From NCBI RefSeq assembly GCF_008017535.1, contig NZ_VRUA01000018.1:1-64000 (forward strand): a stretch of 64,000 nt of DNA. Direction: 5' to 3'. Positions 1 to 11,810 of this stretch are shown in pieces. The notes under the pieces are model-generated. The model did no database searches and was not told the origin of the DNA. It was given only the letters and a program-made list of their open reading frames with translations. The translations under genes and the position numbers were made by a program. Source of the stretch: Ottowia flava (GTDB taxonomy: Bacteria; Pseudomonadota; Gammaproteobacteria; Burkholderiales; Burkholderiaceae_C). Each line of letters starts with the position of its first letter. The first letter of the stretch is position 1.

Positions 1-235
1 CATGGACTGGGCCGCCGCGGTGGGCGGGCATCTGCCCACACGGCGCGAACAGCCCTTGGTGTTTGCCCACTGCAAACAGCACCTGAAGCCCGAGGTGCAC
101 TGGTCCAGCGAGGCACACGAAGACGACGCCTCTTACGCCTGGTACTGCCACTTCAACTACGGCAACCAGCTCAACCTCCACAAGAGCAGTGAGGCCCATG
201 CCGTTGCCGTCCGCTTGATCCCCATCAGCGCTTAG
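1..235 (+). CDS. DGR target (variable) protein 1, 5'-truncated by window edge
   Basis: This is the C-terminal 77 codons of a C-type-lectin/DUF1566-like protein whose variable repeat is rewritten by the DGR. The reading frame begins at base 2 and enters from outside the window; its first Met corresponds to residue 77 of the intact paralogue at 267-722. Bases 1-127 match 494-620 with one difference (AAA versus GAA), so the two genes are a recent tandem duplication with a 493-bp period. The C-terminus (AWYCHFNYGNQ, then AVAVRLIP) has the layout of DUF1566-type ligand-binding ends. Seven substitutions in its VR fall on template adenines of AAC codons. The fold assignment is inferred from sequence pattern. 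Confidence 0.85.
   Translation, partial: MDWAAAVGGHLPTRREQPLVFAHCKQHLKPEVHWSSEAHEDDASYAWYCHFNYGNQLNLHKSSEAHAVAVRLIPISA
128..214 (+). repeat. DGR variable repeat VR1
   Basis: This is a copy of the template repeat at 1288-1374 without gaps. Across the eight AAC template codons it reads TAC, CAC, AAC, TAC, AAC, CTC, AAC, CTC, so seven changes all hit adenines. The invariant TGG, TGC, TTC, GGC and CAG codons are kept. One codon further on, TAT has become AGT, which includes one T-to-A change not expected from adenine mutagenesis. Identity resumes through the GC-rich 3' end, the usual position of the initiation-of-mutagenic-homing segment, and ends at CCGTCCGC. Confidence 0.9.
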
Positions 236-266
236 TTCTTCAATCCTTTTTCATCACCACGCACCC

Positions 267-722
267 ATGACCACCATCACCCTCGAATCCATCGACGCCA
301 AGCAGACCGAGCTGGCTGAAATGATCGCCGCTTTCAAGAACAGTGGCCAGACCATCGCCATCCCAGCCGCCGCCATCGCGCTGCGCCCTGGCGAGCGCTA
401 CGCCGGCCTAGCGCTGGACGACGAAGGCGCGCCCACCCACCACCTGATCCTGTTGCCACCGCGGCCTAACGGCCGCTTGAATTGGCGGGCCGCCATGGAC
501 TGGGCCGCCGCGGTGGGCGGGCATCTGCCCACACGGCGCGAACAGCCCTTGGTGTTTGCCCACTGCGAACAGCACCTGAAGCCCGAGGTGCACTGGTCCA
601 GCGAGGCACACGAAGACGACGCCTCCTACGCCTGGTACTGCGTCTTCTACGGCGGCAGCCAGAACACCACCCACAAGAGCTATGAGGCCCATGCCGTTGC
701 CGTCCGCAGATTGAGCGTTTAG
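267..722 (+). CDS. DGR target (variable) protein 2, DUF1566/C-type-lectin-like
   Basis: A complete 151-residue target protein of the DGR. Residues 1-75 are a conserved N-terminal part including LRPGERYAGLAL and HHLILLPP. Residues 77-118 (MDWAAAVGGHLPTRREQ onward) resemble the front half of phage-borne DUF1566-like domains. Residues 119-148 are the variable repeat, ending AVAVRRLSV. The protein has no signal peptide or membrane segment, so a virion or cytoplasmic role is more likely than an anchored surface receptor; this is inferred. Variation would alter exposed ligand-contacting residues, as in the Mtd-type C-lectin fold. No strong Shine-Dalgarno sequence precedes the ATG. Confidence 0.88.
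   Translation: MTTITLESIDAKQTELAEMIAAFKNSGQTIAIPAAAIALRPGERYAGLALDDEGAPTHHLILLPPRPNGRLNWRAAMDWAAAVGGHLPTRREQPLVFAHCEQHLKPEVHWSSEAHEDDASYAWYCVFYGGSQNTTHKSYEAHAVAVRRLSV
621..710 (+). repeat. DGR variable repeat VR2
   Basis: It aligns without gaps to the template repeat 1288-1377 over 90 bp. The eight AAC template codons read TAC, GTC, TAC, GGC, AGC, AAC, ACC, ACC: nine substitutions, every one at a template adenine. The only other difference is a silent TCT to TCC near the 5' edge. The 3' part from CACAAGAGCTATGAGG to CCGTCCGCAGA is identical to the template. Confidence 0.95.
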
Positions 723-752
723 TCCTTCAGTCCTTTTCTTTGAGCCAGATTC

Positions 753-1115
753 ATGTCCCTCCATTCCGATTTGCCCATCCACCGCACCGGCGTCAAGTTG
801 CTCGCCCTGGCGGTGGCAGCGCAGCCGCACATGCGGCGCGAGCTGAAGCGCGTGCTGGGCGACAAGCTCACCCAGCACTGCGTGGACATTCTGGAATTGA
901 TGGCCATGGCCAACGCCACCCAGCGTGACGTGCGCGCGGCACACCTGCAGGAATTGCTGGTGCGCCACCGCGCCATCACCGTATTGCTCCGCGTCGCGCA
1001 CGACAGCGGCAACTTGTCGCCGCGCCTGTGGGCGCAGTCGATTGAGCTGCTGGGCAGCATTGGCAAGCAGGCCGGCGGCTGGCTCAAATCCGCGAACAAG
1101 GCGCCTGCAGCATGA
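753..1115 (+). CDS. avd: DGR accessory variability determinant (Avd-like four-helix bundle)
   Basis: A 120-residue, almost entirely helical, basic protein placed between the target gene (30 bp downstream of its stop) and the template repeat, the usual position for Avd. In characterised DGRs, Avd forms a pentameric four-helix bundle that binds the RT and the template RNA and is needed for cDNA synthesis. Here the sequence shows long amphipathic helices with Arg/Lys clusters (MRRELKRVLGDKL, RDVRAAHLQELLVRHRAITVLLR, SIELLGSIGKQAGGWLKSA). The assignment rests on size, helix pattern and position. The start is the ATG before SLHSDLPIHRTG. Confidence 0.85.
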   Translation: MSLHSDLPIHRTGVKLLALAVAAQPHMRRELKRVLGDKLTQHCVDILELMAMANATQRDVRAAHLQELLVRHRAITVLLRVAHDSGNLSPRLWAQSIELLGSIGKQAGGWLKSANKAPAA

Positions 1116-1287
1116 CGGTCAAGGCTCTCATGCCCGTGCGCACATGGGATCTGGTCGCGCCGCTGGCCCACAAGGCCACCGCCAGGCACACCACGGAAAC
1201 CGCCGCGCCCGCGCGCGGCACGTCCGGTGCAGTTGCCCCGCTGATCGGCGCAAGCCTTCGGCCGGGTGACGTCGATAGCGCGATGGG

Positions 1288-1377
1288 GCCTCTTACGCCT
1301 GGAACTGCAACTTCAACAACGGCAACCAGAACAACAACCACAAGAGCTATGAGGCCCATGCCGTTGCCGTCCGCAGA
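1288..1377 (+). repeat. DGR template repeat (TR)
   Basis: This is the invariant donor for VR1 and VR2. Read in the target frame it contains eight AAC codons separated by TGC, TTC, GGC and CAG; AAC is the codon that adenine mutagenesis diversifies most widely. Transcription through here should give the template RNA. The 172 bp between avd and the TR has no convincing gene and may be the 5' part of that RNA. The last 20 to 29 bp overlap the beginning of the RT reading frame, so the TR 3' end is also RT coding sequence. Confidence 0.95.
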
Positions 1378-2473
1378 CCCCAACCTGTTCGCCCTGCTGG
1401 TGCAGGCCTACCTCGATTGCCGGCGCCACAAGCGCAACAGCGCCAGCATGCTGGCGTTCGAGGCCCGGGCCGAGCACCACCTTTATGAATTGCATGAAGC
1501 CCTGGCCAGCGGTACGTACCAGCCAGGGCAAAGCATCTGCTTTGTGGTGCGCCACCCCAGGCCGCGTGAGGTGTGGGCCGCCCAGCCGCGCGACCGCATC
1601 GTGCACCACCTGCTGTACAACCACATCGCCGCGCGCTTTCACGCCGCCTTTGTGGCCGACAGCTGCGCCTGCATCCCCGGCCGCGGCACACTGTACGGCG
1701 CCCGCCGGCTGGACCACCAGGTGCGCAGCTGCACCCACAACTGGCAGCGGCCCGCGCATTACCTGAAGCTGGACTTGGCCAACTTCTTCGTCAGCATCGA
1801 CAAGCACGTCCTGCTGGCGCAGCTGCAGCGCCGCATCACCGAGCCCTGGTGGATGGCCCTGGCCGCCACCATCCTCATGCACGACCCACGCACCAACGTG
1901 CAAGTGCGCGGTCGCCCCGACGAGCTGGCGCTGGTGCCGCCGCACAAAAGCCTGTTCAACGCGCCGGCCGACCACGGCCTGCCCATCGGCAACCTCAGCA
2001 GCCAGTTCTTCGCCAACGTGCTGCTGGACGAGCTGGACCAACACATCAAGCACCGCATCCGCTCGCCGCACTACGTGCGCTACGTGGACGACATGGTGCT
2101 GCTGCACCCAAGCCCGCAGTGGCTCAACCACGCGCGCGAGCAGGTGCAAGCCAAGCTGGCCGACCTGCACCTGGCCGTCAACCCGCGCAAGACCATCCTC
2201 CAGTCCGTCGCGCGTGGCGTGGACTTCGTCGGCCAGGTCATCCGCCCATGGCGCCGCACCACGCGCCGACACACCCTGCTCACCGCCCTGCACCGTCTGA
2301 TGGAAATGCCCGCAGCCAACGTCTACGCCGCCGGCAACAGCTACCTGGGCACCGTCCGCCAAGCCACCCACAGCCACGCTGAACGGGCCGCGTTGTGCAA
2401 GGCGCTGCTGCGGCGCGGGCATGCGGTGGAAGGGGCGCGGCTGGAGAAGGCGTTCAGGAGGCGCACCACATGA
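1358..2473 (+). CDS. DGR reverse transcriptase
   Basis: A 371-residue reverse transcriptase that copies the template RNA with adenine-directed errors. Visible motifs: AAQPRDRIVHH (RT motif 1 region), motif A KLDLANFF with Asp139, the IGNLSSQ box at 210-216, and the YVDD catalytic box at 242-245. Group II intron and retron RTs usually have QGxxxSP where this has (I/L/V)GxxxSQ, which is the DGR signature. There is no maturase or HNH tail. The likely start is ATG 1358, with ATG 1349 in frame; both lie inside the TR. The open frame reaches back to 1112, but that part is low-complexity read-through. The stop overlaps the next start (ATGA). Confidence 0.95.
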   Translation: MPLPSADPNLFALLVQAYLDCRRHKRNSASMLAFEARAEHHLYELHEALASGTYQPGQSICFVVRHPRPREVWAAQPRDRIVHHLLYNHIAARFHAAFVADSCACIPGRGTLYGARRLDHQVRSCTHNWQRPAHYLKLDLANFFVSIDKHVLLAQLQRRITEPWWMALAATILMHDPRTNVQVRGRPDELALVPPHKSLFNAPADHGLPIGNLSSQFFANVLLDELDQHIKHRIRSPHYVRYVDDMVLLHPSPQWLNHAREQVQAKLADLHLAVNPRKTILQSVARGVDFVGQVIRPWRRTTRRHTLLTALHRLMEMPAANVYAAGNSYLGTVRQATHSHAERAALCKALLRRGHAVEGARLEKAFRRRTT

Positions 2474-2772
2474 CCACCGCCACCTTCCATGGCACGCTGG
2501 TCGCAAGGCCCGAAGTGCGCTACCTGCCCGCTGGCAAAGACGGCCTCCCCGTACCGGTGTTGTGCCTGCGACTGCGCAACGAGGGCCTGGGCAGCAACCC
2601 CATCACCGTGCAGCAGCACTTCAAGGCTGGCGCCACCCGCCAGTGCGAGGCCGCCGCACGCCGACTCAAGCCAGGCCAACAGCTGACGGTGGAGGCGCCC
2701 CTGACGGCGCTGCAGCTGACGGTGGCCGGCGCAGCGCACATCCATACCGAGAAAAAGAAAGGCAACCCATGA
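2470..2772 (+). CDS. small single-stranded DNA-binding/OB-fold-like protein
   Basis: A 100-residue protein whose ATG overlaps the RT stop by 4 bp, so it is translationally coupled to the DGR polymerase. The opening (TATFHGTLVARPEVRYLPAGKDG) and beta-strand pattern (VPVLCLRLRNE, GQQLTVEAPLT, LQLTVAGAAHI) resemble the OB fold of SSB and PriB. It lacks the acidic C-terminal tip of SSB and ends in a basic run (EKKKGNP). It may belong to the element's replication module, or handle single-stranded cDNA or template; the second idea is speculative. The family call is by pattern only. Confidence 0.55.
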   Translation: MTTATFHGTLVARPEVRYLPAGKDGLPVPVLCLRLRNEGLGSNPITVQQHFKAGATRQCEAAARRLKPGQQLTVEAPLTALQLTVAGAAHIHTEKKKGNP

Positions 2773-4874
2773 CCACCCCCGACTTCCTCCACATCGACCC
2801 GCGCCTGGTGCTGCCCAGCGCCACCAACCCGCGCAAGCACTTCGACCCGGTCAAGCTGCAGGAGCTGGCCGACAGCATTGCGGCCAGCGGCGTGCACCAG
2901 CCGGTGTTGCTGCGCCCGCTGCCGGCGGCGCGCGTGCCGGACACGGTCGGCCTGAAGCCGCGCCCCACGCATGAGATGGTGGCCGGCGAGCGGCGCTTGC
3001 GCGCCAGCCTGAAGGCGGGCGTGGCGACCATTCCGGCGATGGTGCAGGACCTGACCGACGCGCAGGTGCTGGAGATCCAGATCGTGGAGAACCTGCAGCG
3101 CGACGACCTGAGCCCGCTGGAGGAAGCCGAAGGCTACCGGTACCTGATCGACCACACCGGGGTGAACGCGCAAGAGGTGGGCGCCAAGATCGGCAAGAGC
3201 CGCGCCTACGTGTACGGCCGCCTGAAGCTGCTGGACTTGTGCCCCGAGGGCCGCGCGGCGCTGGCCGAGGGCAAGCTGGAAGCCAGCACCGCCCTGCTGG
3301 TGGCGCGCATCCCGGATAGCAAGCTGCAGGCCGAGGCCACGGCCGTACTGACGGAAGTGGACTACACCGGCGACGCGGCGTACAGCCACCGGGCGGCGGC
3401 GGTGTACATCCAAGAGCACTACCAGCTGCGGTTGGAGAGCGCCAAATTCGACCGCGCCAGCGCCACGCTGGTCCCCGCGGCCGGCGCGTGCAGCGCTTGC
3501 CCGCACCGCACCGGGGCCAACCCCGACCTGTTCAGCGACGTGAAGAATGCAGACGTGTGCACGCTGCCATCGTGCTACCACGCGAAAGAACAGGCGCACG
3601 TTGACGCGCAGCTGCAGGCCGCACGCGACAGCGGTGCGGAGATCATCGAAGGGCGCGAAGCCAAGCTGCTGATGCCCCACCGCTGGAGCCGCAAGGTGGA
3701 AGGCCACCTGCGCCTGGACGACGCAGAAGACAGCCCGACCAAAGAGCCGCTGCGCAAGGTGCTGGCGAAGGTGATGGAGGAACAGGGCGTCAAGCCCACC
3801 CTGATCGCCAACCCGCACGTGGACGGCGAGATGATCGCGGTGATCAGCGGCGAACAGGCGACGGCCCTGTTGCACGCCGCCGGACAATTGAACGCCGCCG
3901 AAAAGGTGAAGGGCGACGCAGCGGCGGAGGCGAAGGCGGCCGAGCGCGAGGCCGCGCTGAAGGCCGAGGACAAGGTCGAACAGGGCTGGCGCAACGCCGG
4001 CCTGCAGGCGGTGATCGACAAGGCCGACGCAGCAGGCTCGCAAGACGGCCGGCCAGCGCTGGCACCCACGTTGTCCGAGCTGCTGCGGCACATCGCACGC
4101 CACTACCTGAAGCTGCTGCGGCTGGACCAATGCAAGGCCCTGGCCAGCCGCCTGAACCTGGGCAAGGTGGCGCCCCGCGACGGCATCGAGCATTGGCTGG
4201 GCGACCACGCGCAGCCCGTCGACGCGCTGATCATCCTGGTGGGCGCATCGGACGCGCAGTGGGTGCGGGCGGACGCTGACAAGGTCGGCGCCAACCACGG
4301 CCTGTACCGCGCCGCCGCCGCCATGGGCGTTGACCTGCCCAAGATCGCCATCGCCGCGCGCGATGAGGCGCGCGCCGACGCCGACGCCAAGGCCAAGGCC
4401 GCCCAAAAGCCCAAGCCCGCCGATGTGCCAAAAGGCGATCTACCCCTGGCCCCTGCTGCGCGCCGCAAGCGGGATGCGAGCGCTGACGCTGAAGGCCCCG
4501 CTACGCGGCGCGGGCGGGGTGCGAAAGCCAAGCCCGCGATCGGCGAGGCGCAGGCCCGCGAATCCATCGCCGCGGCGATGCAGGCCCAGGAGCCAGATCC
4601 AGGCGCCGCTGCCGCGGCGCAAAACGACGGTGCGCGGCCGGTGCTGCGCCCGGCCACGCCCAGTGGTGGCGCCGCGCCAGGGCTGGCGATAGGGCAACAG
4701 GTCAAGGTGCTGGCCAACGCGACAGGCGCTGGGCAGAAGCGCTGGGTGGGCAAGACCGGCCAGGTCGTCAGCCAGATGGGCGACAGCGCCTGGGACGTGG
4801 AATTCGCCGCCAAGCGCAAGGGCCTGCCAACGGTGCAGTGTGCGTTTGATGTCAGCGAGCTGGAGGTGGTGTGA
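2769..4874 (+). CDS. ParB/Srx-type nuclease-like partition protein of mobile element
   Basis: A 701-residue protein starting at the ATG that overlaps the previous stop (ATGA). Residues 5-115 are a ParB N-terminal domain: NPRKHFD, LADSIAASGVHQPVLLRP, GERRLRAS and VENLQRDDLSPLEEA. A helix-turn-helix follows (VGAKIGKSRAYVYGRLKLL). Near residue 240 a cysteine cluster (CSACPH, then CTLPSC) could bind zinc. The middle is helical and charged, a low-complexity Ala/Lys/Pro linker runs from about 540 to 640, and the last 55 residues look like a small SH3/KOW-like barrel (GQQVKVLAN, GKTGQVV). Such long ParB-like proteins are typical of ICEs and prophages. DNA binding is likely; the exact role is unknown. 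Confidence 0.8.
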   Translation: MTTPDFLHIDPRLVLPSATNPRKHFDPVKLQELADSIAASGVHQPVLLRPLPAARVPDTVGLKPRPTHEMVAGERRLRASLKAGVATIPAMVQDLTDAQVLEIQIVENLQRDDLSPLEEAEGYRYLIDHTGVNAQEVGAKIGKSRAYVYGRLKLLDLCPEGRAALAEGKLEASTALLVARIPDSKLQAEATAVLTEVDYTGDAAYSHRAAAVYIQEHYQLRLESAKFDRASATLVPAAGACSACPHRTGANPDLFSDVKNADVCTLPSCYHAKEQAHVDAQLQAARDSGAEIIEGREAKLLMPHRWSRKVEGHLRLDDAEDSPTKEPLRKVLAKVMEEQGVKPTLIANPHVDGEMIAVISGEQATALLHAAGQLNAAEKVKGDAAAEAKAAEREAALKAEDKVEQGWRNAGLQAVIDKADAAGSQDGRPALAPTLSELLRHIARHYLKLLRLDQCKALASRLNLGKVAPRDGIEHWLGDHAQPVDALIILVGASDAQWVRADADKVGANHGLYRAAAAMGVDLPKIAIAARDEARADADAKAKAAQKPKPADVPKGDLPLAPAARRKRDASADAEGPATRRGRGAKAKPAIGEAQARESIAAAMQAQEPDPGAAAAAQNDGARPVLRPATPSGGAAPGLAIGQQVKVLANATGAGQKRWVGKTGQVVSQMGDSAWDVEFAAKRKGLPTVQCAFDVSELEVV

Positions 4875-5107
4875 TGGGTGAAGCGCAACGCACCGGGTGC
4901 CCTGCGCCCATCCTTGAACAGGATCGGAGCAAGGCCATCCACGCAGCGGCACTGGAGCTTGCCTGCGCGCTGAACGCCGCATCAAGGCCGGGCCTGAGGT
5001 TTGAGGTCAGGGTCACTTCGCGGAACTATCGAAGGATCGAAGATGTCCTTGACGCCCAGGTCTACAACGTCGAGGTCGACGTCGTGCAAACGACGCGCGT
5101 CATGTGA
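4874..5107 (+). CDS. small hypothetical protein of mobile element
   Basis: 77 residues, beginning at the ATG inside the ParB-like gene's stop (TGATG). I do not recognise the family. It has one helix (SKAIHAAALELACALNAA) followed by beta strands (LRFEVRVTSRNY, VYNVEVDVVQ). There are no membrane segments or metal-binding motifs. The tight overlap with its upstream neighbour supports it being a real member of the same transcript. Confidence 0.5.
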   Translation: MGEAQRTGCPAPILEQDRSKAIHAAALELACALNAASRPGLRFEVRVTSRNYRRIEDVLDAQVYNVEVDVVQTTRVM

Positions 5108-5118
5108 GGGTCGACCGG

Positions 5119-5679
5119 ATGTCGAATCAGACCAACCCGCCGGAAGGCTGCAGCCCCTTCGACCTGGAGGTCGCCCAGCGCGGCGATCGAGCCGCCCGCA
5201 ACGGACCTCGCATCTACCTCAGCGGCCCCATGACCGGCCTGCCGGACCTGAACTTCCCCGCCTTCCACGCCATGTCTGCCCGCCTGCGCGCTGCGGGGCA
5301 TAGCGTGGTCAACCCTGCCGAGCTGAACTCCGACCCCGCGGCCGACTGGAATCAGTGCATGCGCCGCGATATCGCCGCGCTGTGCACTTGCACCACCCTG
5401 GCCTTGATGCCGGGCTGGGAAACAAGCCAGGGCGCCCAGCTGGAGCTGCACATCGCGCACCGGATCGGGTTGGGGATTGTGATGGCGGAGGCGCTGGTCG
5501 ATGGCGAAGGCGTTGCGGTGGCAGCCGCCCGCGCCGACGAGCGCGAGCAATGCGCGCGCATCTGCGACGCGCGGGAAGCCGAGGCCGACGAAAGCTACGA
5601 CTCCGTTGCCGAATCGGTGACGGCCGGCGGCCTGGCAGAAGCCATCCGCGCCCGCGCTAACAAGAAGGAGCCAGGCTGA
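5119..5679 (+). CDS. DUF4406 domain protein (nucleoside 2-deoxyribosyltransferase-like)
   Basis: 186 residues. The motif IYLSGPMTGLPDLNFPAFHA followed by LRAAGHSVVNPAEL and an ALMPGWETSQGAQLELHIA segment is the DUF4406 pattern, a Rossmann-like relative of nucleoside 2-deoxyribosyltransferases common in phages. The C-terminal 60 residues are a charged helical tail (AARADEREQCARICDAREAEADE). The ATG at 5119 has a GAGGG sequence 8 nt upstream; a GTG at 5104 overlapping the previous stop is the alternative. The real substrate is unknown. It may act in nucleotide handling for the element. Confidence 0.8.
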   Translation: MSNQTNPPEGCSPFDLEVAQRGDRAARNGPRIYLSGPMTGLPDLNFPAFHAMSARLRAAGHSVVNPAELNSDPAADWNQCMRRDIAALCTCTTLALMPGWETSQGAQLELHIAHRIGLGIVMAEALVDGEGVAVAAARADEREQCARICDAREAEADESYDSVAESVTAGGLAEAIRARANKKEPG

Positions 5680-5687
5680 TGACCGCC

Positions 5688-5927
5688 CTACTCGTCCAGG
5701 TCGTACCGCAGCTGCATATCGACCACGATGCGCGCGATGTCCTTGCGGTACAGGCGCCGGTCGGTCACCGACCGCACCGTCCAGTTGGGCCCGCCGTCGC
5801 CGGGGTCCATCCAGACCACCGAGCGCGGACGGTCGATATCGGTCTCCTGCCCAGCCAGGTCGGGGATCTCGCGCAGGCGGCCCATGAGCATGAGCCGCAG
5901 TTCATCAGCCGATCGGCGGGGTTTCAT
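5688..5927 (-). CDS. small hypothetical phage-type protein
   Basis: 79 residues on the minus strand, convergent with the DUF4406 gene (9 bp apart) and divergent from the excisionase-like gene. A basic N-terminus (MKPRRSADELRLMLMGRLREI) is followed by a strand-rich middle (SVVWMDPGDGGPNWTVRSV) and a closing helix (YRKDIARIVVDMQLRYD). The plus-strand frame over the same bases is rich in His and Arg and looks like a shadow. The family is not recognised; it is compact and balanced enough to be a real protein. Confidence 0.55.
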   Translation of the reverse strand: MKPRRSADELRLMLMGRLREIPDLAGQETDIDRPRSVVWMDPGDGGPNWTVRSVTDRRLYRKDIARIVVDMQLRYDLDE

Positions 5928-5956
5928 GGCCCGCAGTATGCACGCCAGGAGGCCCC

Positions 5957-6247
5957 TTGAACCGCCCCGCAAACCCATCCGTCGACCTGGCCGGCCAGCC
6001 GATCACCGTGGACCTGGCCGGCGCCGCGGCGATCATGAAGGTGCACAAAGAGACGGTGCTGAAGGACATCCGCGCCGGGCGCTTGCCAGCGGGCCAGAAC
6101 GGGCGCGCCTACGTGATGCTGACACGCGACGTGGTGGCGCTGACCGAGGCGCGCATCGTGGAACAGACGGCTGCACGCATGGGCGTCACCAAAGCCGCTC
6201 CGACAAGACGGAGCCGCGCAAGTTCGCATAACGCGCCAGCATCTTGA
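5957..6247 (+). CDS. excisionase-like helix-turn-helix protein
   Basis: A 96-residue protein with a MerR/Xis-type winged-helix segment: VDLAGAAAIMKVHKETVLKD, then IRAGRLPAGQNGRAYVMLTRDVVAL. This is the layout of small excisionases that bind and bend DNA for recombination. The start is a TTG, supported by a perfect AGGAGG at 5947-5952 with a 4-nt spacer. It converges with the integrase and overlaps its 3' end by 62 bp, so the two could interfere by antisense transcription. Directional control of integration and excision is inferred from neighbours. Confidence 0.7.
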   Translation: MNRPANPSVDLAGQPITVDLAGAAAIMKVHKETVLKDIRAGRLPAGQNGRAYVMLTRDVVALTEARIVEQTAARMGVTKAAPTRRSRASSHNAPAS

Positions 6248-7313
6248 TGTCCTTGTGGCCGGTGATCTTCATGATCTCCATTTCCGACAGACGCGTGCGC
6301 TCAAACAGGCGGCTGGTGGCTTCGTGCCGCAGGTCGTGAAACTTCAGGCCGTCGCAGCCGGCCGCGTCGAAGATGTTGACCCACAGCTTGGACAGGTAGT
6401 CGGTGACCCGGTGGCGCGCGCGCGTACCGTGGTCGCCATCCCACCAGGGGAACAGTTGGTCCGCGGGAAGGCCATCGGGGATCTGGCGCAACGCCAAGTA
6501 GTCCTGCAGCGCCGCCACGGCTACGGTCGATAGCGGCACCTGGCGCTTGTCGCCATTCTTCGTGCGGTCAAGGAACACGGTGCGCCGGTCCAGCGCGACC
6601 TGGTCCACGGTCAGCGTGTACATCTCGGACAGGCGCATGGCGGTCTCGGTCGCCAGCAGGTAGAGGCAGCGCAGCGCCGGCACGTGCGCCAGCTGCAGCG
6701 GGCGCTGCTTGCGCGGCAGAACGCCGGCATCGAGCATGGCCATGATGCGCTCATGCTCGCCGCGCTCCAGGCGCCGATCGCGCGCCACGTCCACACGTTT
6801 TTCACCGGCCAGCTGGGCGTCCAGCTTGGTGTACTGGCTGTAACCGTTGGGCAGCGTGCGGAAGGGGTGGTCGGGCAGTTCGAGCTTTTTTAGCCGCATG
6901 CCCCAGTCGCAACACCTGGCCAGCGCGCCGACCTTGGCACGGATGGTGTCCGGCGCGACCCGGTCCACGCGCTTCAGAACCGAGATCCAATCATCGACCC
7001 AGGCGGCATTGATGGCCGTCAGCGGCGTGGTGCCGCGCGTTTTGTCGACCGTGCGCAGCTCCGCCAGGTCTTTGTGCGAGGGGTGCGCGTCGCGCGTGTA
7101 GTCGGCGATCAGCTGCCCCAGCGTCTGCGTGGTCGCCGTGGGCTGGTACTGCGTGGGGACGATGCCGCTGGCCAGCAGCTTGTCCAGGTTGGCAGCAAAG
7201 GCATCGCCCTCCGCCTCATCGGTGAAGGTGAAATACAGCGGCTTGTCCAGCACGCCCGCCCGCTTGAACACGTACTCAAACGTGCCATTCGCCCGCTTCC
7301 GCTTACCCGCCAT
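6186..7313 (-). CDS. int: tyrosine recombinase (integrase) of the DGR-bearing element
   Basis: 375 residues. The catalytic set is complete: Arg227 (ETAMRLSEM), Lys252 (RTKNGDK), His326 and Arg329 (HDLRHEA), His353 (TGHKD) and nucleophile Tyr362 (ARYANL). An N-terminal arm-binding region (residues 1-60, AP2-like) and a SAM-like core-binding domain (65-165) precede the catalytic domain. The ATG at 7313 was chosen because the 40 codons upstream look non-coding. The gene is about 170 bp from the 3' end of tRNA-Val, the usual layout when the element sits in the tRNA 3' end. It is probably active, since no key residue is missing. Confidence 0.95.
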   Translation of the reverse strand: MAGKRKRANGTFEYVFKRAGVLDKPLYFTFTDEAEGDAFAANLDKLLASGIVPTQYQPTATTQTLGQLIADYTRDAHPSHKDLAELRTVDKTRGTTPLTAINAAWVDDWISVLKRVDRVAPDTIRAKVGALARCCDWGMRLKKLELPDHPFRTLPNGYSQYTKLDAQLAGEKRVDVARDRRLERGEHERIMAMLDAGVLPRKQRPLQLAHVPALRCLYLLATETAMRLSEMYTLTVDQVALDRRTVFLDRTKNGDKRQVPLSTVAVAALQDYLALRQIPDGLPADQLFPWWDGDHGTRARHRVTDYLSKLWVNIFDAAGCDGLKFHDLRHEATSRLFERTRLSEMEIMKITGHKDIKMLARYANLRGSVLSERLW

Positions 7314-7431
7314 GCCACACCCCCACGCCCATCCGGCGGCAGTGTAGCAGCAAGGAGTAGCACGGTTGGCAGAAGCCGTTTCTTGGTTGGCTGTGGCTTT
7401 CCTAGGCGTTGATTGCGGGTGGTCAGCGGCC

Positions 7432-7464
7432 AAAGAAAAAGGGCTCAGATCGCTCTAAGCCCTT
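7432..7464 (-). terminator. Rho-independent terminator after tRNA-Val
   Basis: On the minus strand, 20 nt after the tRNA CCA end, AAGGGCTTAGA can fold back on TCTGAGCCCTT and is followed by a T-rich run (TTTTTCTTT). This fits transcript release after the tRNA. It lies on the element side of the tRNA 3' end, so it may have been brought or duplicated by the element. Confidence 0.65.
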
Positions 7465-7483
7465 GATCTATAAGAAGTTTCTG

Positions 7484-7530
7484 TGGTGGGTGCTGACAGT
7501 CTCGAACTGCCGACCTACTCCGTGTAAAGG
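7484..7530. other. probable attachment site (attR-like) in tRNA-Val 3' half
   Basis: This is inferred from the integrase being next to the 3' end of an intact tRNA, the standard arrangement for tyrosine recombinases that target tRNA genes. The core repeat should match part of the anticodon or T-arm through CCA. The partner copy must lie left of base 1, because no second copy of this tRNA segment is visible in 1-7483. Exact core limits cannot be set from this window. Confidence 0.5.
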
Positions 7531-7559
7531 AGCCGCTCTACCAACTGAGCTAAGCACCC
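7484..7559 (-). tRNA. tRNA-Val (anticodon UAC)
   Basis: A 76-nt cloverleaf on the minus strand starting GGGTGCTTAGCTCAGTTGG. It has a 7-bp acceptor stem GGGTGCT/AGCACCC, a D-arm, the anticodon loop TTTACAC with anticodon TAC, the T-loop TTCGAGA, and an encoded CCA end at 7484-7486. Its 3' half faces the integrase and is the likely integration site of the element to the left. The gene begins 20 bp downstream of the hup stop on the same strand. Confidence 0.97.
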
Positions 7560-7573
7560 CACCGAAAACGGTG
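7560..7573 (-). other. small hairpin between hup and tRNA-Val
   Basis: CACCG-AAAA-CGGTG forms a 5-bp stem with a 4-nt loop between the hup stop codon and the first base of tRNA-Val. No T-run follows, so it is more likely an RNA-processing or mRNA-end structure in a shared transcript than a terminator. Confidence 0.4.
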
Positions 7574-7579
7574 TCTGAA

Positions 7580-7852
7580 TCAGTTCAGCGCGTCTTTCAG
7601 CGCCTTGCCGGGACGGAACTTGGGTACCTTGGCGGCCTTGATTTTAATCGTAGCGCCGGTGCGCGGGTTGCGACCAGAGCGTGCAGCGCGTTTGCCGACC
7701 GCGAAAGTGCCAAAGCCCACCAGCGAAACGGTGCCACCCTTGCGCAGAGTGGTCTTGACCGCACCGATCGTGGCTTCCAGCGCACGGGTGGCAGCAGCCT
7801 TGGAAATGTCGGCGTTTTTGGCGATGTGTTCGATCAGCTCGGTTTTGTTCAC
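7580..7852 (-). CDS. hup: HU-family nucleoid DNA-binding protein
   Basis: 90 residues, the normal HU length. It begins [18 protein letters not shown], contains the beta-arm region ([26 protein letters not shown]) with the conserved RNPRTG loop and Pro that intercalates DNA, and ends [11 protein letters not shown] is a small basic dimer that bends DNA and compacts the nucleoid. The start is GTG, preceded by an AAAGAGGGG Shine-Dalgarno region. It is the first chromosomal gene beyond the integrated element and lies immediately upstream of tRNA-Val on the same strand. Confidence 0.95.
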
Positions 7853-8176: not shown

Positions 8177-9088
8177 CTACCGCACCGGCGCCGACGCCCG
8201 CACCACCAACGCCACACCCAACGCCGTCAGCGCCATGCCGGCCAGCGTGACCACCGTGATCGGCTCGCGAAACAAGCCCCAGGCGATCAGCGCGGTGGTG
8301 GGCGGCACCAGGTACATCAGGCTGGCCACGCTGGCGGCGGCACCGCGCTGGATCAGCAGGAACAGCAGCGAGCTGCCGCCCAGCGTCAGCCCCAGCACCG
8401 ACCAGGCCATGGCGCCGATGACCTGGGCGTTCCACTGGATCGATTCGGGCTCCAGCAGCGCCATCGGCCACAGCACCAGCGCGGCGGCCAGCAACTGCAC
8501 GGCGCTGGCGCTGCGCACGTCACACGGCTGGACGAAGCGCTTCTGGTACAGCGTGCCCGCGGTGATCGCCACCAGCGCCAGCACGGCCCAGCTGAAGTTG
8601 GCCGCCGTGACGTGGTCGCCCGGACTGCCGTCGGTCAGCTTGCGCCACACGACCAGCACCAGGCCGGCAAAACCGAGCACCAGACCGCTCCACTGCCGGC
8701 GCGTGACCTTGCTGGCGCCGGCGCCGGTGGCCGACAGCCAGATGGCGGTCAGCACCGGCTGGATGCCGGCGATCAGCGCCGCGAGGCCTGAGCCCATGCC
8801 GCCCTTGACGGCCGCCCAGACGCCGCCCAGGTAGGCCGCGTGCATCAGCACGCCGGTCACGCCCAGGTGCAGCCACTGCGCGCCCGTCTGCGGCCAGCGC
8901 ACGCGCGCCAGGGTGACCCAGACGACAAAACACACCAGCGACAGCGACATGCGCACCGCCAGAAAGGTGAAGGGCGGCGCGTACGGCATGCCGTAGCGCG
9001 CGACGATGAAGCCGGTGGCCCAGATCAGCACGAACACCGCCGGCATCAGGCGGATCAGCGTGGAGGGGTCGTTGCCGCGCTCGTTCAC
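8177..9088 (-). CDS. EamA/DMT-family inner-membrane transporter
   Basis: 303 residues with about ten hydrophobic segments arranged as two EamA repeats. The first starts with LMPAVFVLIWATGFIVARYGM, the typical opening of drug/metabolite transporters. The second begins near ANFSWAVLALVAITAGTLYQKR and ends with GMALTALGVALVV. Family members export amino acids, metabolites or drugs; the substrate cannot be told from sequence. The neighbouring genes do not suggest a pathway. Monocistronic layout is likely. Confidence 0.88.
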   Translation of the reverse strand: MNERGNDPSTLIRLMPAVFVLIWATGFIVARYGMPYAPPFTFLAVRMSLSLVCFVVWVTLARVRWPQTGAQWLHLGVTGVLMHAAYLGGVWAAVKGGMGSGLAALIAGIQPVLTAIWLSATGAGASKVTRRQWSGLVLGFAGLVLVVWRKLTDGSPGDHVTAANFSWAVLALVAITAGTLYQKRFVQPCDVRSASAVQLLAAALVLWPMALLEPESIQWNAQVIGAMAWSVLGLTLGGSSLLFLLIQRGAAASVASLMYLVPPTTALIAWGLFREPITVVTLAGMALTALGVALVVRASAPVR

Positions 9089-9872: not shown

Positions 9873-11810
9873 TCAGTGCAGCGCGCGGTAGATCTCTTCG
9901 GCCAGCGCTTGCGAAATGCCTTCCACCGTCGCCAGGTCCTGCACGCTGGCCGCCTCCACGCCGCGCACGCCGCCAAAGCGCTGCAGTAAGCGCGCGCGCT
10001 TGCGCGGGCCGACGCCCGGAATTTCTTCAATGCGGCTGCCGCCCACCCGCACCTTGGCGCGCGCCGCGCGCATGCCGGTGATGGCGAAGCGGTGCGCCTC
10101 GTCGCGGATCTGGGCGATCAGCATGAGCGCGGCCGAATCCTTGCCGAGGTAGATCTTCTCGCGCCCGTCGGCAAACACCAGCTCTTCCAGGCCCACCTTG
10201 CGACCCTCGCCCTTCTCTACGCCGACGATCAGCGACAAATCCAGCCCCAGCGCCGCAAACACCTCGCGCGCCATGCTGACCTGGCCCTTGCCGCCGTCGA
10301 CCAGCACCAGGTCGGGCATGCGCACCGCGGGGCCATCGCCCTCGGCCGTGGTCTGCAGCGCCTCGGCGATCTTGCTGTAGCGCCGCGTCAGCACCTGGCG
10401 CATGGCGGCGTAGTCGTCGCCGGGCGTGATGCCTTCAATCTTGTAGCGGCGGTATTCGCTGCTGGCCATGCGGTGGTTCTGGAACACCACGCAACTGGCC
10501 TGCGTGGCCTCGCCCGCGGTGTGGCTGATGTCGAAGCATTCGATGCGCAGCTCGGCCAAATCCGGCACGTCCAGCGCCAGCGCGTCGGCCAGCGCACGCG
10601 TGCGCGCCTGCTGCGAACCTTCTTCCGCCAGCAGCCGCGCCAGTTGCAGCCCCGCGTTCTGGCGCGCCATCTCCAGCCACACGCGGCGCTGGCCGCGCGG
10701 CGCATGGGTGGCGCTGATCTTCACCTCTTCTTTGTCGGCCAGCGCCTGCAGCAGCGACTGCGCCACCGGCTCGCTGGTGATCAGCTGCGGCGGCGCCGGC
10801 ACCTGCAGGTAGTGCTGCGCGATGAAGGCGTCCAGCACCTGCGCCTCCAGCGTGGGCAGTTCGGTGTCGGTGTCGTCAAACGCCATCGCCGCGCCATCTT
10901 CCACATGGCTGGGGAAGTACGCGCGATCGCCCAGATGCCGCCCGCCGCGCACCATGGCCAGATTGACGCAGGCACGCCCGCCCTGCACCTTGACGGCCAG
11001 GATGTCCACATCCGCATCGCCCGCCACCTCCACCGCCTGCTGGTGCAGCACCGTGTTCAGCGACGTGATCTGGTTGCGGATGGCGGCCGCCTGTTCGAAC
11101 TCCAGCGCGTCCGAATGCACCATCATGCGGCGCTCCAGCTGGTGCAGCAGGTCCTGCGTTTCGCCGCGCAAAAATTGCTCGGCGTGCGCCACGTCGGCGG
11201 CGTAATCGGCCGCGCTGATCAGCCGCACGCAGGGGCCGGTGCAGCGCTTGATCTGGTACAGCAGACACGGCCGTGTGCGGTTGGCAAATACGGTGTCCTC
11301 GCAGGTGCGCAGGCGAAACACCTTTTGCATCAGCTGGATGGTTTCCTTCACCGCCCAGGCGCCCGGGTACGGGCCAAAGTAGCGGTGGCGCTTGTCGGTC
11401 GCGCCGCGGTAGTACGCCATGCGCGGGTAGGCGCCCGGCACGGGCGGCCCGTCGGCCTTGTCCTGCTCGCGCCCGGTGCCCGTGAGCTTGAGATAGGGGT
11501 AGCTCTTGTCGTCGCGAAAAACGATGTTGTACTTGGGCGCCAGCTGCTTGATCAGGTTGTTTTCCAGGATCAGCGCCTCGGCCTCCGAGCGCACCACCGT
11601 CGTCTCCATGCGCGCGATCTTGCGCACCATGTGCCCGATGCGCGTGCCGCCGTGGTTCTTCTGGAAGTAGCTGGATACGCGCTTCTTCAGGTTGCGCGCC
11701 TTGCCCACGTAGAGCACGTTGCTCGCGTCGTCGAAGTAGCGGTACACGCCCGGCAGACCGGGCAGCGCGGCGACTTGCGCGAGCAGTTCTTCAGAATGCA
11801 TCTCTGACAT
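9873..11810 (-). CDS. uvrC: UvrABC excinuclease subunit C
   Basis: 645 residues, close to the family norm. In order: an N-terminal GIY-YIG nuclease ([24 protein letters not shown]), a Cys-rich segment ([16 protein letters not shown]), the UVR helix pair that binds UvrB ([12 protein letters not shown]), the RNase H-like endonuclease ([16 protein letters not shown]) and a C-terminal double helix-hairpin-helix ([17 protein letters not shown]). It makes the dual incisions in nucleotide excision repair. ATG 11810 is the start used; ATG 11801 (MHSEELL) is possible. It is divergent from the PIN-like gene, with about 60 bp between them. Confidence 0.97.

Follow-up and report, generated by a model that had tools for sequence, protein, structure and literature searches.

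The window, a 64,000-nucleotide stretch of Ottowia flava DNA that begins at the first base of contig C10, opens with a diversity-generating retroelement (DGR) arranged in the order target, avd, TR and RT. An earlier sequence-only reading had called this element complete, and both the claim and the gene order are confirmed. The TR (1288-1377, + strand) is 90 nt long with 27 adenines and is matched by VR1 (128-217) and VR2 (621-710), pairs that were first found without adenine weighting. Compared with the TR, VR1 has 12 mismatches, 10 of them at TR adenines (hypergeometric p 6e-5), VR2 has 10 with 9 at adenines (hypergeometric p 5e-5), and VR0, located in a target on contig C7, has 15 with 14 at adenines (p 3e-8). 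The last three mismatches of VR1 (TTG for AGA) are flank past the end of homology, which leaves VR1 proper at 128-214. The adenine bias described from the letters alone holds in this alignment, as do the counts of changes at AAC codons (7 in VR1 and 9 in VR2); VR1 and VR2 encode different residues at seven of the eight AAC sites, not at six as had been stated.

The avd gene (accessory variability determinant; 753-1115, + strand) is recognized by Pfam bAvd (E 2e-10) and by the PHROG family 'Avd protein of DGR' (6e-22), and it scores 37.5 bits with the NCBIfam Avd model, under the cut-off of 80. The RT ORF (1112-2473, + strand) matches RVT_1 (E 5e-18) and PHROG reverse transcriptase (3.5e-104), with BPP-1 brt and other DGR RTs among its matches. 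These profile searches bear out the Avd-like gene and the RT that had been recognized earlier, and the IGNLSSQ and YVDD boxes are present in the sequence; the DGR-type RT motif has been given as (L/I/V)GxxxSQ (PMC3521204). RT-like sequence begins at about 1385, and the true start is unsettled among several candidates, namely the ATGA overlap with avd at 1112 and the ATGs within the TR at 1349 and 1358. A DGR-type RT motif with YxDD, adenine-biased TR/VR pairs, Avd and a lectin-fold target with a C-terminal VR are all found, and the DGR in the window is real: it has a TR, Avd and RT, and its VRs depart from the TR almost exclusively at adenines.

Turning to the targets, T1 (2-235, + strand) contains VR1 and is cut short to its 3' part because window base 1 is the start of the contig. 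T2 (267-722, + strand) encodes 151 amino acids with a C-type-lectin-like fold and carries VR2. Its AlphaFold2 model has a pLDDT of 94.4 and the Lcl C-terminal domain 8q4e as best PDB match (E 1.6e-4); the match of T2 to Pfam Lcl_C (E 1.9e-4) lies under the cut-off of that family, and an NCBIfam scan of the two targets gave no match. The body of T1 shows 1 difference in 127 from T2, and its last 48 nt are identical to the tail of T0, a third target that carries VR0 and sits at the end of contig C7. Since the window starts at a contig boundary and T0 ends contig C7, the DGR has at least three targets. No further VR-like match (at most 12 non-adenine mismatches) was found in the window or in C7:45001-94765. 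The two tandem targets of the sequence-only reading are present, but T0 was overlooked. Nor is a two-target form unusual, as had been proposed: among 113 lineage loci with a TR and VR in range, a tally that includes some mutual duplicates, 91 have two VRs, 15 have three, one has four and six have one. With two VRs as the rule in the lineage, two targets are an ordinary feature and were dropped as the novelty. Multi-VR DGRs are already in print, and two multi-VR cassette types are enriched in Proteobacteria (PMC3521204, PMC6642488).

The carrier of the DGR is a tailed temperate prophage of about 41.5 kb in a tRNA-Val gene, complete with an integrase, flanking attachment repeats, a repressor, and terminase, portal, capsid and tail genes. 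One attachment repeat (7482-7535, unstranded) overlaps the tRNA-Val gene (7484-7559, - strand) and is identical at 54 of 54 positions to its partner at C7:60855-60908. Profile matches identify the tyrosine integrase (6186-7433, - strand) and a ParB-like gene of 701 amino acids (2769-4874, + strand). A weak single-strand-binding-protein-like gene of the same prophage (2473-2772, + strand) reaches Pfam SSB at E 0.0012, under the cut-off. The integrase and partition genes that had been seen beside the DGR are indeed there, but as the early or lysogeny end of the prophage.

Activity had been deduced from VR1 and VR2 having different codons, for which the window by itself is insufficient; a comparison of relatives shows VR change mostly at TR adenines. 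Between L004/L005 and L006, the RT, the TR and the 300 nt upstream of each VR are identical, while 14 sites differ in the proximal VR (13 at TR adenines) and 1 in the distal VR. Judged by these sequences, recent VR change occurs in the relatives, and what supports mutagenic retrohoming is such differences between near-identical relatives. Across the lineage, adenines account for 2,972 of the 3,047 VR mismatches, a share inflated by a TR/VR finder that penalizes adenine mismatches less than others. A decaying element whose diversification is over is very unlikely. It does sit at a broken assembly, yet its ORFs are intact with a catalytic YVDD, the structural module and attachment repeats are present, and the VR changes fall almost only at adenines.

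The sequence-only reading overlooked a structured RNA between avd and the TR. The avd-TR spacer is a full-length member of the RT-15 RNA family (Rfam RF03018; 1099-1290, + strand; 160.7 bits, gathering score 82), which is the predicted 5' module of the template RNA. In a scan of 399 genomes of the order, nine hits pass the cut-off (the window and eight others), and all nine abut a DGR TR. The eight others all occur with a lineage RT (57-64% identity) and have a TR that starts -4 to +1 nt from the RT-15 end, while three sub-cut-off hits have neither a lineage RT nor a TR at the RT-15 end. RT-15 was found in 13 of the 14 lineage loci scanned (L117 is without it, and L160 was itself discovered through RT-15), and the TR starts -4 to 0 nt from the RT-15 end in all 13. 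The same scan of nine loci with more distant RTs, BPP-1 included, found none. Ordinary folding of the GC-rich region 1099-1400 gave no excess stability (z 0.18). A candidate RT-14 in Vibrio phage VP58.5 scored under the RT-14 gathering score and was rejected. In the literature listings and passages covered, no statement linking RT-15 to DGRs, or giving RT-15 a function, was found; the link may already be in print.

Within RT-15, a conserved strand termed a1 (1145-1153, + strand) is predicted to pair with a2 (1374-1382, + strand) at the 3' edge of the TR, with 8 of 9 pairs formed in the window. Pairing was assessed in 97 loci. Of an initial 120 loci, the avd/TR comparison took in 113; the RT was long enough in 112, and filtering out RTs at least 95% identical left 94. 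Five loci with a separated TR were then added and L117 and L077 taken away. The tree holds only loci in the RT alignment, and 34 of 114 viral-contig relatives were left out of the locus set. In these 97 loci, 802 cells are paired versus 215-380 when the strands are slid. Because the anchors favor pairs 1 to 4 or 5, together with the G that follows a1, it is pairs 5-9 that carry the pairing test. Over pairs 4-9, 491 of 582 cells are paired against a shuffle mean of 425 and a maximum of 444, and none of 2,000 shuffles, a test that ignores kinship among loci, reaches the observed value. Mapped on the tree, 20 two-sided compensated changes stand against 58 one-sided and 2 two-sided breaking changes. 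With one-sided breaks so common, the helix evidently tolerates mismatches; A.C occurs at pair 6 in 22 of the 97 loci. Eleven further loci form 7-9 of 9 pairs each, seven of them with previously unseen sequence pairs. L115 fits the pattern poorly, L180 has no detectable TR, and in L178 an additional anchor on the opposite strand (4 of 9 pairs) was discarded as spurious.

When compared with about 300 nearby positions, a2 scores best or ties for best in 82 of 97 loci and is the sole best site in 53. The TR flanks also pair with a1 better than the VR flanks do (5.06 versus 3.30 of 6; TR higher in 142 of 193 comparisons, equal in 36 and lower in 15), and in 181 of 193 VRs the homology with the TR stops 1-7 nt inside a2. 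The complete complement of a1 is mostly missing from the VR flanks, a difference that would identify the TR as donor. It could be argued that no helix exists and that the match arises secondarily from a conserved mutagenic-homing site or from RT coding, since CAG is also kept in the VR flanks (149 of 193) and, where TR and RT adjoin, a2 is also part of the RT coding frame. However, this is hardly credible given the two-sided compensated changes, shuffles that never reach the observed pairing, pairing retained where the RT is elsewhere and previously unseen pairs among the held-out loci. On this comparative evidence, a single template RNA closed by the a1-a2 helix is well supported.

In six loci the TR and RT are about 1-2 kb apart, and RT-15 still abuts the TR in all five of those scanned. 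RT-15 could be a cis-regulatory leader, with a1-a2 spanning the start region of the RT and regulating its translation instead of organizing cDNA synthesis. RT-15 overlaps the avd stop, the RT ORF begins in or near RT-15, and a2 adjoins candidate RT starts. Against this, L026, L063, L082, L090 and L091 have a TR-RT gap of about 1-2 kb, yet a1-a2 by the TR forms 7-9 of 9 pairs, and RT-15 goes with the TR and not with the RT in separated loci, making a leader of this kind quite improbable. It is also unlikely that RT translation begins at the ATGA overlapping avd and runs on through the TR, which would then encode an N-terminal extension of the RT as well. Between avd and the RT, the RT frame stays open in 55 of 84 non-redundant loci and the other frames in 0 and 4; conserved RT-15 motifs, which introduce stops into those other frames, confound the contrast. 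Start-stop overlaps fall in the RT frame in 46 of 55 cases. However, the frame is closed in 29 of the 84 loci, and separated-RT loci have their own RT start. A TR nested in the RT gene was rejected as a novelty, given the confounded open frame, its being unnecessary in separated-RT loci and a TR/RT overlap class already in print (PMC3521204). The avd-TR 'extension' was likewise rejected as conserved amino acids, since much of the variation sits in stems of the Rfam RNA structure.

Taken as a sequence-based model, it is highly probable that the window holds a prophage DGR of an RT-15 lineage in which RT-15 is the 5' half of the template RNA, the a1-a2 helix closes the template, and cDNA replaces the VRs of T0-T2. 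Three parts of the model are established as far as sequence comparison goes: RT-15 abuts the TR, the putative helix covaries, and the homology between TR and VR stops within a2. An RNA reading from the end of avd across the TR would fold with RT-15 forming its 5' half, and long-range pairing of a1 with a2 would close it. From general DGR knowledge, RT and Avd would start cDNA at the helix, the TR would be copied with errors at adenines, copying would end at the RT-15/TR border, and the three targets T0, T1 and T2, all small lectin-fold proteins, would have their VRs replaced by the cDNA.

Priming could instead depend on a functional spacer 3' of the TR inside the RT coding sequence, with RT-15 only ending reverse transcription or stabilizing the RNA. 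The structured spacer of BPP-1 does lie 3' of its TR (PMC12875486), and several of RT codons 8-21 show raised synonymous identity. However, the raised identity is patchy and equalled by other stretches, and no Rfam DGR RNA was found 3' of the TR in the window at E up to 1; RF03022, which BPP-1 itself matches, has no match in window 1-7600 at the same limit. Since it would also leave the a1-a2 covariation unexplained, priming from such a spacer appears doubtful. Returning to a template closed by a1-a2, we infer, tentatively, that RT-15-lineage DGRs may make cDNA in the retron way, with an msr-like 5' scaffold, the a1-a2 helix presenting the TR 3' edge, and G1154 (+ strand) as putative primer, possibly through its 2'-OH. 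The nucleotide after a1 is G in 97 of 97 loci, this letter forming part of the a1 anchor pattern used to pick sites. If retron-like priming holds, there would be two RNA architectures within DGRs, with the scaffold 5' or 3' of the template, and RT-15 would gain a function. To our knowledge, BPP-1 is essentially the only element for which DGR priming is understood in molecular detail. Should a large phage lineage use a 5' scaffold with a template-closing helix, the DGR priming rule would not be universal, and an RNA logic would be common to DGRs and retrons. The helix gives exact predictions (base swaps and the priming base) for one assay, and it may give targeted mutagenesis tools a template module that is compact and separable.

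In the DGR of Bordetella phage BPP-1, the small gene is bbp7, which we take to be avd. The two systems share the order of target, small gene, TR and RT and adenine mutagenesis (PMC12875486), as well as a phage carrier with a tRNA-derived attachment site. BPP-1 relies on a spacer 3' of the template to recruit and prime its RT (PMC12875486); its small gene abuts the TR, and a structured RNA (2310-2442, RF03022 Phage_DGR RNA) fills the TR-brt gap. The window, by contrast, has its structured RNA on the 5' side of the TR, that RNA belongs to a different Rfam family, and the TR adjoins or overlaps the RT ORF. RT identity between the window and BPP-1 is about 30% over 78%. The RTs of Burkholderia phage Magia and Pseudomonas phage Haboob are 58-59% identical to the window RT, and both phages carry RT-15 RNA (165.5 and 155.6 bits) abutting the TR. 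Magia, described as a likely myophage, has small lectin-fold targets annotated as well (PMC7883833), but its annotated RT begins inside RT-15 and its feature table has no RNA gene there. The Rfam consensus of RT-15 itself stops at the TR border, with a1 unpaired and the helix partner outside the family. DiGReF group 3 and multi-VR DGRs share a TR that overlaps the RT ORF end and several paralogous targets, but in the available text they are arrangement classes without an RNA explanation (PMC3521204). Retron msr-msd RNA has a structured 5' part followed by a template and then the RT, with 5' and 3' ends that hybridize and a conserved priming G at or beside the end of the 5' strand (PMC6868368). 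The window system is alike in this order, in a predicted terminal helix that joins the 5' RNA to the 3' end of the template, and in the G at the end of the 5' strand. Unlike a retron, it would give targeted mutagenesis and not satellite DNA, its RT is DGR-type with Avd, and branched linkage in its RNA is only putative; with NCBIfam retron_St85, the only retron model among those listed, the window RT scores 52.2 bits, far under the cut-off of 235 for a retron-type RT. Set against the 3' spacer of the BPP-1 type, the RT-15 5' layout of the window appears to resemble retrons more than the textbook DGR.

The window opens with a genuine diversity-generating retroelement (DGR), as the sequence-only reading had proposed. 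A repeat search without adenine weighting recovered a 90-nt family made up of the template repeat (TR, 1288-1377) and two variable repeats, VR2 (621-710) and VR1 (128-217). When these were aligned with the TR, 10 of 12 mismatches in VR1 and 9 of 10 in VR2 fell at TR adenines, and profile-library searches confirmed the identities of the accessory protein Avd and the reverse transcriptase (RT). Among 94 non-redundant RTs, synonymous identity is raised at a number of RT codons in the range 8-21 (window 1406-1447). The genome assembly consists of 53 contigs, with the window corresponding to C10:1-64000, and the 5' part of target T1 is missing because C10 starts there. A further target, T0, lies at the end of contig C7; its VR0 has 15 differences from the TR, of which 14 are at adenines. 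The last 48 nt of T0 are identical to the T1 tail, and the T1 and T2 bodies show one difference in 127 positions. The simplest reading would be the order T0-T1-T2 with the start of T1 lost from the assembly, and the target repeat would explain the break between C7 and C10. With its T2-like body and T0-like tail (C7 end; L003 9326-9766), T1 (window 1-262) resembles a product of inter-target recombination, or may be an assembly artefact. The structure model of T2 (pLDDT 94.4) has an N-terminal helix and finds its best PDB match in the Lcl C-terminal domain (E 1.6e-4); by this model, the targets are small lectin-fold proteins.

The carrier is a prophage. A 54-nt exact repeat, mostly the 3' part of tRNA-Val, is shared by window 7482-7535 and C7:60855-60908, and the two copies enclose about 41.4 kb plus a gap. 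Genes for terminase, portal, protease, capsid, major tail protein, tape measure and a tail-fibre-like protein are found on C7, while repressor, primase/helicase, ParB and integrase genes surround the DGR. The DGR occupies the early/lysogeny end, at least about 19 kb from the tail genes found, a distance that would fit a virion position of the targets as well as action in the lysogen. In L003, a 353-aa ORF of lower GC with a signal-peptide-like start, judged by eye, lies between repressor and DGR (6095-7156).

RT searches yielded 80 viral-contig loci (80 of 114) and 39 genome loci, or 120 with the window. TR and VR were found inside the searched range in 113, and six more have a TR farther from the RT; none was found in L025, which is cut by the contig start. 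Two VRs occur in 91 of the 113 loci, three in 15, four in one and one in six, with the window entered as two, remote VRs possibly missed in short loci and some elements counted twice. The two-target form, earlier called unusual, is therefore common in this lineage, and the reported element is an ordinary multi-target phage DGR. Two identical elements from different metagenomes, L004/L005 and L006, show 14 differences in the proximal VR, of which 13 are at adenines, and 0/300 differences upstream of it. The remote third targets of relatives are also small: among 17 ORFs counted, 15 do not exceed 220 aa, some ORF calls being doubtful. Burkholderia phage Magia (L134) has a third VR at 8251-8341, within a gene annotated hypothetical (46) or at its end, with 11 mismatches, all at adenines; the Magia paper names two targets (PMC7883833). 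Two Pandoraea loci (L022, L089) carry a stop inside the TR near 9974, in the RT frame, which is absent from close relatives, and an Ideonella plasmid (L166, 1846-5245) carries tandem avd-RT pairs (n=2).

The RNA organisation of this DGR is a new variant, worth testing. The avd-TR spacer is the Rfam RNA RT-15 (RF03018; window 1099-1290, 160.7 bits). RT-15 was present in 8 of the 9 lineage loci scanned first and in all five further loci (L016, L090, L133, L134 and L160, the last originally found through RT-15); in each of these 13, the RT is of the lineage and the TR begins -4 to 0 nt from the point where RT-15 ends. It was not found in nine loci with more distant RTs, BPP-1 among them. L117 has a DGR without RT-15 and an RT just 46% identical, possibly at the lineage edge. 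Scanning 399 genomes of the order gave 12 matches, nine above cut-off. The window's own has its TR at the RT-15 end and a lineage RT; the other eight, two on contigs already among the RT-search genome loci, also have an RT of the lineage, and their TRs begin -4 to +1 nt from that end. The three weak matches have neither. Across the phylum (398 genomes), three matches exceeded the cut-off, two the same as in the order scan. By their translations, a DNA methyltransferase-like ORF (L026, L063, L091) or another, enzyme-like ORF (L082) separates TR from RT. RT-15 still adjoins the TR in these four loci and therefore belongs with the TR, not the RT. Vibrio phage VP58.5, a distant relative, has a sub-threshold RT-14 match just before the RT domain (L164, 2358-2477); other RT-n families may be DGR RNAs too.

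One conserved strand of RT-15, uUgAAUCUG, has no pairing partner in the Rfam consensus; its complement, CAGAUUCAA, is found at the 3' edge of the TR. These strands, a1 (1145-1153) and a2 (1374-1382), were compared in 97 of 99 loci, leaving out L117 and L077. The paired fractions at positions 1-9 are 0.99, 1.00, 0.96, 0.88, 0.87, 0.71, 0.96, 0.91 and 0.74, against 0.26 at the tenth, and 802 cells pair in register versus 215-380 when slid. At pairs 4-9, 491 of 582 cells pair, compared with 425 (sd 5.4, maximum 444) after partner shuffling, which ignores kinship. Taking kinship in, the RT tree gives 20 two-sided changes from one paired state to another, affecting pairs 2, 5, 6, 7, 8 and 9, and 58 one-sided plus two two-sided breaking changes. 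Eleven further loci, seven with new sequences and two already among the RT-search genome loci, pair at 7-9 of nine positions. Four more include two at 9/9, apparently L096 and L119 again, and two at 7/9, in one of which no TR was detectable. Among about 300 positions, a2 ranks first or shares first place in 82 of the 97 loci and is the single best in 53. VR flanks pair with a1 less well than TR flanks. For 181 of 193 VRs, the homology to the TR runs 1-7 nt into a2 before it stops. A G directly follows a1 in 97/97 loci.

RT-15 may act as a scaffold for RT-Avd, and the a1-a2 helix would fix the cDNA start site; priming at G1154, the nucleotide after a1, would be the bold step of this proposal. 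In BPP-1 this role is filled by the 3' spacer (PMC12875486). The Rfam match in BPP-1 is to a different family, RF03022, and lies 3' of its TR. The closer likeness is to retrons, in which the 5' end of the msr is base-paired with the 3' end of the msd, the priming G lying inside the msr strand or just after it (PMC6868368). The same three elements, in the same order, surround the DGR template here.
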